Origin: Desulfurellales bacterium | GTDB taxonomy: Bacteria > Campylobacterota_A > Desulfurellia > Desulfurellales > Hippeaceae | Direction: 5' to 3' | Assembly: GCA_027064065.1 (NCBI GenBank) | Contig: JAMOQJ010000097.1 | Location: 1-35,004 of the forward strand | DNA: 35,004 nucleotides | Program-made: the position numbers and the translations under genes | The notes under the pieces: model-generated | The model's input: only the letters and a program-made list of their open reading frames with translations | The model's database searches: none | Told to the model about the DNA's origin: nothing | Shown: piece by piece, positions 1-33,847 of the stretch | Numbering within the stretch: the first letter of the stretch is position 1 | Layout of the letters: the number at the start of each line of letters is the position of its first letter

Positions 1-1182
1 GGATATAATGTGTATATGGTAGGCGGTATAGTTAGGGATATAATACTTGGATATAAGAATCTGGATATAGACCTTGTTGTAGAAGGTGATGGCATTCGGT
101 TTTCGAAAGAGTTTGGAAAAATATATGAAGCAAGGGTAGCTTCACACGATAGGTTTAAAACTGCCACTATTATATTTGACGATGGCTTAAAGATTGATGT
201 AGCAACGGCAAGAGAAGAGTATTACGATTTACCCGGCTCTCTTCCCAATGTCGAACAGAGTTCAATTAAACTGGATTTATACAGAAGGGATTTTACAATC
301 AACACACTTGCCGTTAAGCTACACGATAATTTTGGTGACCTATTAGACTTTTTTGGAGGATTGAAAGATTTAAAAGAGAAAAAAATTCGCGTCCTGCATA
401 TGTTAAGTTTCATCGAAGACCCAACAAGAATGTTTAGAGCTATAAGATTTTCTGCGCGCTTGGGTTTTGAGATAGGCAAACAAACCGATAGACTGATTAA
501 AATAGCCGTTGATTTGGAAATACTCAAACATGTGGAACGTATACGTATCTTTAATGAAATAAAACAAATTTTATCGTCAAACTGCGTTAAATGCAGTTTT
601 GAAATGATGAAAAAATACAAATTGATTCTTGCATTGGATAAAAAACTAATTATAGACAATAGAATACTGTCTTTTTTAGAAAAGCAGGAAAAAATAGTGG
701 ATAGATGTATAATGAGCTGCAAAGATAAAACAATAAATGTGGCATTGGTATTTATAATATTACTTGAGTATCTATTTAGAAAATCATTAAGCTTCACCGA
801 TACAATAGGTGCTGACGAAAAAACCAAGCGTATAACCAAAGAAAATGCATATAAATTCCCATTAGTAATCAAAACCCTACATAATAGCGAAAGCAATAAT
901 TTTGATATATACTCATCTCTAAAGGGTTTATCAATAGAAGGAGTGCTCGCTCTTTACAACATAACAGACGAGCATGAAAGAATAGAATACTATTTAAATC
1001 ATCAATTAAACATAAAACCCATAATAAGAGGAAAAGACCTGCTGTCTTTAGGTTTTAAACCATCAAAAATATTTACCATAATTATAGAAGATGTATTCAA
1101 ACAGCAAATACTGGAAAAAATTAAAGATAAAAACGAAGCTTTGGATTATGTTATGAAAAAATATTCACAGTATATAAATTAA
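1..1182 (+). CDS. CCA-adding enzyme / poly(A) polymerase-family nucleotidyltransferase, 5' partial
   Basis: Class II tRNA nucleotidyltransferase family: adds CCA, or A alone in split systems, to tRNA 3' ends. The frame is open from base 1 (G-Y-N-V-Y-M-V-G-G), so the GTG at 10 is probably internal and the true start lies left of the window. In 393 visible residues I see the VGGIVRD motif (7-13), the catalytic D-x-D (D22, D24), a third carboxylate in KIDVATAR (D66), the YRRDFTIN block (94-101) and DPTRMFRAIRF (from 140). The opening of the visible part resembles long family members that carry N-terminal DHH and CBS domains before this core; that extension is inferred, not seen. It converges with lspA, with stop codons 3 bases apart. 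Whether it adds CC, A or CCA cannot be told by eye. Confidence 0.88.
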   Translation, partial: GYNVYMVGGIVRDIILGYKNLDIDLVVEGDGIRFSKEFGKIYEARVASHDRFKTATIIFDDGLKIDVATAREEYYDLPGSLPNVEQSSIKLDLYRRDFTINTLAVKLHDNFGDLLDFFGGLKDLKEKKIRVLHMLSFIEDPTRMFRAIRFSARLGFEIGKQTDRLIKIAVDLEILKHVERIRIFNEIKQILSSNCVKCSFEMMKKYKLILALDKKLIIDNRILSFLEKQEKIVDRCIMSCKDKTINVALVFIILLEYLFRKSLSFTDTIGADEKTKRITKENAYKFPLVIKTLHNSESNNFDIYSSLKGLSIEGVLALYNITDEHERIEYYLNHQLNIKPIIRGKDLLSLGFKPSKIFTIIIEDVFKQQILEKIKDKNEALDYVMKKYSQYIN

Positions 1183-1185
1183 AAA

Positions 1186-1683
1186 TCAACCGCTATCTAC
1201 CTGTTTTATTTTGATTCTTGAAAAAATTAAAACAAATACACCTACGGTTATAAACGAATCAGCAAGATTAAATGCCGGATAGTGGTAGTTTTTTATATAA
1301 AAATCTAAAAAATCCACAACATAGCCCTTTACGATTCTTTCATAAAGATTACCCACAGCTCCACCACCCAACAAAGAAAGACCTATAATATACGCTAAAT
1401 TCCTATTTTTACCAAAGAGTATAAGATAAATTATTATCAGAAAAACAATTAATGATATCCCGCACAAGAATATAATTCTATAAATTTCAGGTAAATTTGA
1501 TAGAAATCCAAAGGCTACACCCCTGTTTCGTATATATACGATATCAAAAAAACCCTTAATAATTGATACTGACTCACCAAATTTAAAATTGTTGACTATA
1601 TATAATTTACTTGCATAATCAAAAATAAAAAAAAGGAGTATCAAAGATACTCCTATAAAAGAACTCTTATCTTTCTTAAGCAT
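1186..1683 (-). CDS. lspA: Lipoprotein signal peptidase (signal peptidase II)
   Basis: Inner-membrane aspartyl protease that cleaves the signal peptide of lipid-modified prolipoproteins. The 165 residues match the family's usual size, with four hydrophobic segments (about 9-29, 68-90, 95-112, 138-155). The catalytic pair is D124 (in VVDFLDF) and D142 (in NLADS), beside the conserved GNLYER motif. D22 in FDYASK closes segment 1. It is the last gene of the ribosomal operon, 5 bases after rplQ. The ATG at 1683 has no clear Shine-Dalgarno. A TTG at 1644 (L14) is preceded by AGGAG, but starting there would remove most of segment 1, so ATG is preferred. Codons 10-21 contain a complete intrinsic terminator (1621-1654), which is unusual and suggests attenuated expression. 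Confidence 0.93.
   Translation of the reverse strand: MLKKDKSSFIGVSLILLFFIFDYASKLYIVNNFKFGESVSIIKGFFDIVYIRNRGVAFGFLSNLPEIYRIIFLCGISLIVFLIIIYLILFGKNRNLAYIIGLSLLGGGAVGNLYERIVKGYVVDFLDFYIKNYHYPAFNLADSFITVGVFVLIFSRIKIKQVDSG
1621..1654 (-). terminator. Intrinsic terminator inside lspA codons 10-21
   Basis: A perfect 9-bp inverted repeat, AGGAGTATC / GATACTCCT (1646-1654 with 1634-1642), has a 3-base loop. On the minus strand it is followed at once by seven T, one A and five T. It begins 35 bases after the rplQ stop, where an operon terminator would be expected, yet it lies within the lspA reading frame. There is no T-run on the plus-strand side, so it should act only on minus-strand transcripts. 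Confidence 0.8.
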
Positions 1684-1688
1684 GATTT

Positions 1689-2045
1689 CTATTCTACAAA
1701 CTCCACAATAGACGTAGGCGCTGCATCGCCTTTTCTAAATCCAAGTTTGATAGCCCTAACATATCCGCCGTTTCTCTCTTTAAATCTTGGTGCTAAATCG
1801 TCAAATAGTTTTCTTACCGCAACTTTATTGTTATTAAGTTTTGATAAAACCCTTCTTCTTGACGAAAGGTTATCGTTTTTAGCAGCAGTTATGAGCTTGC
1901 TTATAAATCTTATTAGTTCTTTAGATTTTGCATCGGTTGTTGTAATTCTCTCATGCTCTATCAAAGATATAGCAAGATTTCTTAAAAGATGTTTTCTTCT
2001 TTCTGAATCCACACCTAATGTTCTATATCCTCTTCTACTCCTCAT
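1689..2045 (-). CDS. rplQ: 50S ribosomal protein L17
   Basis: Large-subunit protein L17. The 118 residues carry the family's N-terminal block (M-R-S-R-R-G-Y-R-T-L-G, then R-R-K-H-L-L-R-N-L) and the conserved C-terminal segment G-G-Y-V-R-A-I-K-L-G-F-R-K-G-D-A. The start overlaps the end of rpoA by 11 bases, implying coupled translation; a GAGGGAG Shine-Dalgarno lies inside the rpoA 3' end. Following rpoA is the usual place for rplQ in the alpha operon. A strong terminator begins 35 bases after its stop. Confidence 0.97.
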   Translation of the reverse strand: MRSRRGYRTLGVDSERRKHLLRNLAISLIEHERITTTDAKSKELIRFISKLITAAKNDNLSSRRRVLSKLNNNKVAVRKLFDDLAPRFKERNGGYVRAIKLGFRKGDAAPTSIVEFVE

Positions 2046-16443: not shown

Positions 16444-17663
16444 AAACCCCTCTTACTCTATTATCTCTGTGATAACACCAGCACCAACAGTTCTTCCGCC
16501 TTCTCTGATAGCAAAGCGTGTCTCTTTCTCTAATGCTACAGGTGCTATGAGTTCAACTGTCATTTCAACATTATCTCCCGGCATAACCATCTCTACGCCT
16601 TCTGGGAGCTTTACCGTTCCTGTTACGTCTGTAGTTCTAACGTAGAATTGAGGTCTGTAGCCATCAAAGAAAGGTGTGTGTCTTCCGCCTTCGTCCTTTG
16701 TTAGAACGTAAACCTGAGCTTTGAATTTTGTGTGAGGAGTAATAGAGCCTGGTTTTGCTAAAACCATTCCTCTTTCTACTTCTTCCTTCTTTATCCCTCT
16801 TAAAAGAACTCCTACGTTGTCTCCAGCCATTGCATCATCAAGTATCTTTCTGAACATCTCTAAGGATGTAGCAACTGTTTTTCTCGTTTCTCTGAAGCCT
16901 ACTATTTCTACTTCGTCGCCTGCTTTGATTACGCCTCTTTCAACTCTACCTGTTACAACTGTTCCTCTTCCTGAGATTGTGAAGATATCTTCGATTGGCA
17001 TTAGGAATGGTTTGTCTGCATCACGGTCAGGTGTAGGTATGTATTCATCAACAGCATCCATAAGCTCTTCTATTGCTTTTGTCCATTCGTTTTCCTGTCC
17101 ATCAGGAGTCTCAAGTGCTTTTAGAGCACTTCCTCTTATTACTGGGATATCATCACCTGGGAATTCATATTTGGATAGAAGTTCTCTAACTTCCATCTCT
17201 ACAAGGTCAACCAACTCTTCGTCGTCAACCATATCTACCTTATTTAGGAATACTACTATGTATGGAACGCCAACCTGTCTTGCAAGAAGGATGTGTTCTC
17301 TTGTTTGTGGCATTGGACCGTCTGCTGCTGATACAACAAGTATAGCACCGTCCATCTGAGCTGCACCTGTAATCATGTTTTTGATGTAGTCGGCATGCCC
17401 AGGGCAGTCAACGTGTGCATAGTGGCGTTTATCTGTTTCATACTCAACGTGAGCGGTATTTATTGTAACGCCTCTTTCTTTTTCTTCAGGTGCGTTATCT
17501 ATATCGTTGTAATCCTTAAACTCTGCAGAGCCCTTAGATGCCAATACCTTTGTTATAGCTGCTGTTAGGGTTGTTTTACCATGGTCAACGTGACCTATTG
17601 TACCGATATTAACGTGTGGTTTGGTTCTGACATATTTTTCCTTTCCCATAAAAGGCCTCCTTA
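16444..17663. repeat. tuf direct repeat, copy 1 (1220 bases)
   Basis: Reading against 32628-33847 (offset 16184), I saw no base difference across the repeat. Identity starts 9 bases beyond the tuf stop (the next gene's Shine-Dalgarno region), runs through the gene, and ends 14 bases upstream of the ATG, taking in the tuf Shine-Dalgarno and the fusA stop codon. Bases 16443/32627 and 17664/33848 differ. Confidence 0.93.
16453..17649 (-). CDS. tuf: Elongation factor Tu, copy 1 (str cluster)
   Basis: GTPase that delivers aminoacyl-tRNA to the ribosomal A site. The 398 residues carry all G motifs: GHVDHGKT (19-26), D-C-P-G-H (81-85), NKVD (136-139), then beta-barrel domains 2 and 3. The C-terminus has the family's [19 protein letters not shown] start with an AGGAGGCC-type Shine-Dalgarno, 11 bases after the fusA stop. 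It is identical to the second copy at 32637-33833, indicating gene conversion. This copy has the str-operon context (rpsL-rpsG-fusA-tuf). Confidence 0.99.
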
Positions 17664-29345: not shown

Positions 29346-29384
29346 AAAAAAAAGGGAAAGAGACACTAATAGCCTCTTTCCCTT
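29346..29384 (-). terminator. Intrinsic terminator/attenuator between rplL and rpoB
   Basis: A perfect 11-bp stem, AAGGGAAAGAG / CTCTTTCCCTT (29374-29384 with 29352-29362), with an 11-base loop, is followed on the minus strand by six more T. It begins 20 bases after the rplL stop. In E. coli a partial terminator in the same gap lowers rpoBC relative to rplJL. The same role is likely here, because I saw no separate promoter between it and rpoB. Confidence 0.88.
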
Positions 29385-29404
29385 ATACCTACTATAAATT
29401 GCAA

Positions 29405-32627: not shown

Positions 32628-33847
32628 AAACCCCTCTTACTCTATTATCTCTGTGATAACACCAGCACCAACAGTTCTTCCGCCTTCTCTGATAGCAAAG
32701 CGTGTCTCTTTCTCTAATGCTACAGGTGCTATGAGTTCAACTGTCATTTCAACATTATCTCCCGGCATAACCATCTCTACGCCTTCTGGGAGCTTTACCG
32801 TTCCTGTTACGTCTGTAGTTCTAACGTAGAATTGAGGTCTGTAGCCATCAAAGAAAGGTGTGTGTCTTCCGCCTTCGTCCTTTGTTAGAACGTAAACCTG
32901 AGCTTTGAATTTTGTGTGAGGAGTAATAGAGCCTGGTTTTGCTAAAACCATTCCTCTTTCTACTTCTTCCTTCTTTATCCCTCTTAAAAGAACTCCTACG
33001 TTGTCTCCAGCCATTGCATCATCAAGTATCTTTCTGAACATCTCTAAGGATGTAGCAACTGTTTTTCTCGTTTCTCTGAAGCCTACTATTTCTACTTCGT
33101 CGCCTGCTTTGATTACGCCTCTTTCAACTCTACCTGTTACAACTGTTCCTCTTCCTGAGATTGTGAAGATATCTTCGATTGGCATTAGGAATGGTTTGTC
33201 TGCATCACGGTCAGGTGTAGGTATGTATTCATCAACAGCATCCATAAGCTCTTCTATTGCTTTTGTCCATTCGTTTTCCTGTCCATCAGGAGTCTCAAGT
33301 GCTTTTAGAGCACTTCCTCTTATTACTGGGATATCATCACCTGGGAATTCATATTTGGATAGAAGTTCTCTAACTTCCATCTCTACAAGGTCAACCAACT
33401 CTTCGTCGTCAACCATATCTACCTTATTTAGGAATACTACTATGTATGGAACGCCAACCTGTCTTGCAAGAAGGATGTGTTCTCTTGTTTGTGGCATTGG
33501 ACCGTCTGCTGCTGATACAACAAGTATAGCACCGTCCATCTGAGCTGCACCTGTAATCATGTTTTTGATGTAGTCGGCATGCCCAGGGCAGTCAACGTGT
33601 GCATAGTGGCGTTTATCTGTTTCATACTCAACGTGAGCGGTATTTATTGTAACGCCTCTTTCTTTTTCTTCAGGTGCGTTATCTATATCGTTGTAATCCT
33701 TAAACTCTGCAGAGCCCTTAGATGCCAATACCTTTGTTATAGCTGCTGTTAGGGTTGTTTTACCATGGTCAACGTGACCTATTGTACCGATATTAACGTG
33801 TGGTTTGGTTCTGACATATTTTTCCTTTCCCATAAAAGGCCTCCTTA
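32628..33847. repeat. tuf direct repeat, copy 2 (1220 bases)
   Basis: Partner of 16444-17663, same orientation, offset 16184 bases. No difference was seen on reading. The repeat covers the tuf coding sequence with 9 bases after its stop and 14 before its start; flanks diverge at once. The interval between the repeats carries rpmG through fusA, including rpoB and rpoC. Confidence 0.93.
32637..33833 (-). CDS. tuf: Elongation factor Tu, copy 2 (tRNA-linked)
   Basis: Second EF-Tu gene, encoding the same 398 residues as 16453-17649 with no nucleotide difference seen. GTPase motifs and domains are as in the other copy. Context differs: it is the first protein gene after four tRNA genes and precedes rpmG, corresponding to the E. 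coli tufB locus. Only 22 bases separate it from tRNA-Thr(GGU). It is expected to be driven by the strong tRNA promoter at 34224-34251, so EF-Tu output comes from two units. Confidence 0.99.

Follow-up and report, generated by a model that had tools for sequence, protein, structure and literature searches.

A conserved candidate intrinsic terminator for the ribosomal-protein operon of Desulfurellales lies inside the lspA coding sequence

We analyzed a 35,004-nucleotide stretch of DNA (hereafter referred to as the window) from a Desulfurellales genome of 1.53 Mb. A long run of genes on its minus strand, extending from rpoB to rplQ, is followed by lspA. The features at this locus are as follows.

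10–1182, plus strand: tRNA nucleotidyltransferase-like gene, convergent with lspA and ending 3 bases from it
1186–1683, minus strand: lspA, encoding signal peptidase II, the last gene of the operon, with its ATG at 1683–1681
1621–1634, minus strand: U tract, made up of T8 (1634–1627), then A, then T5
1634–1654, minus strand: putative terminator hairpin, with 5′ arm AGGAGTATC (1654–1646), loop TTT (1645–1643) and 3′ arm GATACTCCT (1642–1634)
1689–2045, minus strand: rplQ, encoding ribosomal protein L17, upstream of the putative terminator
1689–29310, minus strand: the run of rpoB, rpoC, rpsL, rpsG, fusA, tuf, the S10-spc-alpha genes and rplQ

The lspA product scored 118 bits against the signal peptidase II model TIGR00077, whose cut-off is 74 bits, and the rplQ product scored 132.7 bits against TIGR00059. 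Within the run, rpoB, rpoC, fusA, tuf, secY and rpoA were identified by NCBIfam models, and the smaller genes by their position and size. Because the convergent gene ends 3 bases from lspA, the window has no space for a terminator 3′ of lspA. Of the 880 positions of the A-adding model, the convergent gene matched only residues 483–873, and it may extend past the contig edge.

The hairpin has a perfect stem of 9 bp and a loop of 3 nt, and U8 lies directly 3′ of it, the combination typical of an intrinsic terminator; the first T of T8 (1634) also closes the stem. The rplQ stop codon ends at 1689, and the stem starts 34 nt further downstream. The predicted folding energy was −11.5 kcal/mol (z = −5.7), and none of 200 shuffled sequences folded equally well. 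The element corresponds to lspA codons 11–19, which encode GVSLILLFF. An earlier note on this DNA had described a terminator-type hairpin that lies within lspA codons where the ribosomal operon ends, and both the fold and the conservation in 19 genomes described below confirm it. The coordinates, the 9-bp stem and the 3-base loop given there were correct; the codon range, given as 10–21, was not. Random synonymous coding of GVSLILLFF according to local codon usage would yield this stem together with T8 with a probability of ~9 × 10^−4 (calculated for one genome). Rfam covariance models gave no match with E values up to 1 against positions 1000–2300 of the window. The possibility of a bidirectional terminator that also serves the convergent gene was ruled out, as the reverse strand in the window has no U tract.

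We then surveyed 25 related genomes of the phylum bin, which is narrower than the NCBI phylum. The element was present at the rplQ-lspA junction, once per genome, in all 19 Desulfurellales genomes, which comprise Hippea-like and Desulfurella-like members of six genera, and in each of them the coding of the GVSLILLFF segment keeps the stem and T8. In the Hippea-like family, lspA follows rplQ and one copy of the element is found in 16 of 16 genomes; a second match in G015 stems from an overlap between two contig ends, which both contain this one site. The three genomes of the other family of the order (Desulfurella-like) have GGAGTGTC-ATT-GACACTCC or a close form, followed by T8, at the same place. 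No further copies were found elsewhere in the genomes. In two further families, represented by six genomes, rplQ and lspA are still adjacent and no such hairpin is present. Thus, the element either originated in Desulfurellales or was retained in this order alone. One genome of a related family, G019, has two rplQ-like genes (L067 on C91 and L070 on C48), one of which lies in a 226-aa open frame.

In its sequence context, the stem was predicted to form with P ≥ 0.9 at 37 °C in 16 of the 19 genomes. In G010 a competing fold prevails at this temperature, which counts against the terminator reading. The hairpin energies were −11 to −13 kcal/mol at 37 °C and about −7 kcal/mol in the 55 °C growth range of this heat-loving order. 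Neither a mutually exclusive antiterminator nor an upstream pause hairpin was conserved among the 19 genomes, and the flanks of the element are not conserved.

To separate constraint on the RNA from that on the protein, we used a codon alignment of the 16 Hippea-like genomes. The nine codons of the element showed 0.073 synonymous differences per comparable pair, confined to the two codons that touch the loop, and the other 139 nine-codon windows of lspA showed 0.33 to 0.71 (median, 0.53). Among the 49 amino-acid-invariant codon columns, seven had no synonymous difference, and six of these fall in the element's stem and tail; by our own count, which ignores relatedness, such a placement would occur by chance with p ~5 × 10^−7. 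In all 19 genomes, which are related to one another, standard pairs occupied 171 of 171 pair cells, with one compensatory change from A-U to G-C as well as wobble changes, and T8 was exact. None of the 14 synonymous single changes that break the stem or T8 was seen in these genomes, and three of the four synonymous loop changes were. Ile15 was replaced by Val, Met or Thr with the pairing kept every time, in the case of Thr with a synonymous GTA to GTG change in the partner, and the synonymous ATT and ATC codons, which would break the pairing, never appeared. At this position, therefore, pairing overruled the amino acid. The earlier note had counted a loss of the pairing in relatives that keep the amino acids as evidence against its reading; we found the opposite, the pairing being kept at the cost of amino acid changes. 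These substitution patterns indicate that selection is acting on the RNA pairing in addition to the protein, and that the hairpin and the U tract are both its targets, as would be expected of an intrinsic terminator.

We examined how lspA is likely to be started. As the earlier note had stated, the ATG lacks a Shine-Dalgarno sequence: its interaction energy is −2.2 kcal/mol as compared with a median of −7.3 kcal/mol for the 36 other ORFs in the window. The corresponding energies in the relatives range from 0 to −5.9 kcal/mol, and the initiation signals are weak in most genomes. In all 19 genomes, an open frame with ATG or GTG lies 21–33 nt 5′ of the GGA, in steps of three, so that the stem begins 20–32 nt after the lspA start, and the distance from rplQ to the stem ranges freely between 21 and 36 nt (in G015 the end of rplQ was read where two contigs overlap). 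The lspA start is located at −8 to +10 nt relative to the rplQ stop; the two genes abut or overlap. In the families without the hairpin, too, the lspA starts shown come immediately after rplQ and have no evident Shine-Dalgarno sequence before them, and the poor Shine-Dalgarno sequence of lspA may simply reflect translational coupling. The AGGAG motif and the in-frame TTG inside the hairpin, which had been put forward as an alternative start, do exist. As a start, the TTG was rejected: it is CTG in G003, G007, G008 and G011, its use would cut transmembrane helix 1, and the upstream frame and start are kept.

The strength of the putative terminator was assessed by a d'Aubenton-Carafa-type score. 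In a set of 48 terminators from 1.2 Mb of Hippea maritima, the d = 38 of the window element would rank above the 90th percentile, although d depends on where the stem end is set and a longer stem gives d = 20.5. The element of H. maritima itself had d = 23, with 31% of the 48 terminators scoring higher. Its hairpin is weaker than 82% of the intergenic terminators and its U tract is among the longest; the view that this is a weak terminator was thus not upheld, as the combined score falls in the upper third despite the below-average hairpin. The lspA element was the only clear terminator near the start of a real gene in the 1.2 Mb. Other 5′-proximal in-gene matches (1226331, 1381741, 1536843 and 636982) proved to be intergenic terminators caught by over-long ORF calls.

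No other strong terminator on the same strand was found in the ~28 kb from rpoB to lspA of the window, and none other than the element was found from rplQ to 250 nt past lspA in the genomes scanned, many of which have a convergent gene directly after lspA. The element is thus the sole candidate intrinsic terminator of the operon. A consensus scan of the minus strand between 1690 and 2100 detected no sigma-70-like site. Lying between the ribosomal-protein genes and lspA, for which no promoter was found, the element has a position of the rplL-rpoB type. A promoter inside rplQ or rpoA may feed lspA; its transcripts would cross the same hairpin. Any lspA transcript must cross the element. On the minus strand of the window, just one other site is comparable: a strong hairpin (−20.5 kcal/mol) at 29351–29385 that has a T-rich tail and lies between rplL and rpoB, where the classical attenuator of that junction is located.

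We consider it probable that an intrinsic terminator ends the rpoBC-S10-spc-alpha transcript inside lspA, and that lspA is expressed by leak-through. Most transcripts of the ribosomal-protein operon would end some 30–60 nt downstream of rplQ, and a minority of RNA polymerases would read through to produce the only mRNA able to encode LspA. The strength of the terminator would then set a fixed, low ratio of LspA to the ribosomal proteins and RNA polymerase. Termination in the cell, its partial nature and a fixed leak independent of translation are all three what we infer from the sequences. If termination is common, the terminated ribosomal-protein mRNAs would include an lspA mini-ORF that lacks a stop codon. 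With weak initiation, fewer ribosomes would stall on it, and this could explain the near-absence of an lspA Shine-Dalgarno sequence.

Read-through might instead be regulated, by the level of NusA or NusG, by temperature or by translation of lspA; we regard this as unlikely. Were it so, lipoprotein processing would be coupled to how actively the cell transcribes its largest ribosomal and RNA polymerase unit, and the LspA sequence would have been bent to keep a switch. The earlier note proposed a particular form of control, in which the stem is covered by translating ribosomes and transcription of lspA requires that translation keep up. Such ribosomes would come into lspA from rplQ. The positions of the lspA starts relative to the rplQ stops fit translational coupling, and a ribosome only a few codons into lspA would cover the 5′ arm. 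However, the stem lies 20–32 nt from the start codon. E. coli terminators located in the first 100 bp of an ORF are efficient, and one placed 30 bp after the AUG loses only ~10% of its efficiency to translation (PMC4824070). Moreover, Campylobacterota, the NCBI phylum of Desulfurellaceae, have been classed as runaway transcribers (PMC13323073). A short distance from stop codon to terminator has been used in published work to indicate runaway transcription (see PMC7858274 for a discussion), and the 28 intergenic terminators of H. maritima start at a median of 8 nt past the stop codon. Geometry and the runaway signature thus speak indirectly against a ribosome getting to the stem before RNA polymerase has left the U tract. 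The weak initiation signals in most genomes also argue against control by ribosomes, which we accordingly hold to be quite unlikely. Thus, the fixed leak is favored over ribosome gating on the basis of the E. coli 30-bp result, the runaway class, the short stop-to-stem distances and the lack of a conserved competing structure.

It is improbable that the hairpin acts post-transcriptionally, in the processing or 3′-end protection of rplQ mRNA, without any termination. Terminators commonly protect 3′ ends, and a conserved stem would serve protection too, but this explanation leaves the invariant U8 unaccounted for, the synonymous CTA, CTC, CTG and TTC codons all being absent. Very improbable is a true lspA start downstream of the hairpin, which would make it an ordinary terminator in the rplQ 3′ UTR. 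In some genomes an ATG does immediately follow U8, and the AGGAG-TTG motif is partly present; many others, such as G016, lack an in-frame start at that position, four genomes have CTG instead of the TTG, and a later start would lose helix 1. In addition, the upstream frame is open in 19 of 19 genomes with ATG or GTG at multiples of three, while the distance from rplQ to the stem is free. That the hairpin is a by-product of protein constraint alone, GVSLILLFF being needed in transmembrane helix 1, can hardly be maintained: the amino acids of this segment are nearly invariant within the order, but the synonymous-site result refutes this explanation, the synonymous sites being frozen outside the loop, Ile15 changing to Val, Met or Thr and never to the synonymous pairing-breakers, and families outside the order having other residues at this segment. 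A hairpin followed by U8 can promote transcriptional slippage, but frameshifted products of slippage at U8 are scarcely credible and were rejected, since the T7 or T9 frames end within 0–30 codons and yield no conserved product.

In the rplJL-rpoBC operon of E. coli, an intergenic attenuator between rplL and rpoB acts as a partial terminator with fixed read-through. The lspA element resembles it as a putative partial terminator after ribosomal-protein genes that would lower the expression of a downstream essential gene, but differs in that the terminator consists of codons of the downstream gene, whereas the rplL-rpoB attenuator is intergenic and free of coding constraint. The tR2 construct W48, likewise with a terminator ~30 nt after the start of the downstream ORF, is hardly suppressed by translation (PMC4824070); unlike this synthetic construct, the lspA element is natural, resides in an essential gene and is conserved across the order. 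A terminator near the start of a translated region is also found in leader-peptide attenuators, for example pyrBI (discussed in PMC4824070). These attenuators depend on ribosome position, a dispensable leader ORF and a pause site or alternative structure, whereas here the ORF is lspA and no alternative structure is conserved. Premature transcript ends inside coding sequences are common in E. coli (PMC7815308); the ORF-internal ends followed up in that study were mostly not assigned to intrinsic termination, although aceK int may be one, and unlike these cases lspA has its protein sequence shaped by a single, perfect U8-tailed hairpin. We found no precedent for lspA or Hippea in the open-access papers searched. 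An ORF-embedded, presumably partial terminator conserved order-wide before an essential gene would represent a novel form of a known element type.

The locus appears to be a clean natural case in which a terminator and a protein segment share bases across a whole bacterial order, with the RNA winning the conflicts. Every LspA transcript must pass the putative terminator in its own gene, so the locus offers a direct test of how expression is set by leak-through in organisms whose RNA polymerase runs ahead of the ribosomes. Elements of this kind would go unnoticed by annotation and terminator-prediction software in which coding regions are masked.

The gene run also includes two tuf genes ~16 kb apart (16453–17649 and 32637–33833, both on the minus strand), which encode 398 amino acids each and have equal NCBIfam scores. 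The second of them adjoins a cluster of tRNA genes for Trp, Thr, Gly, Tyr and Thr.
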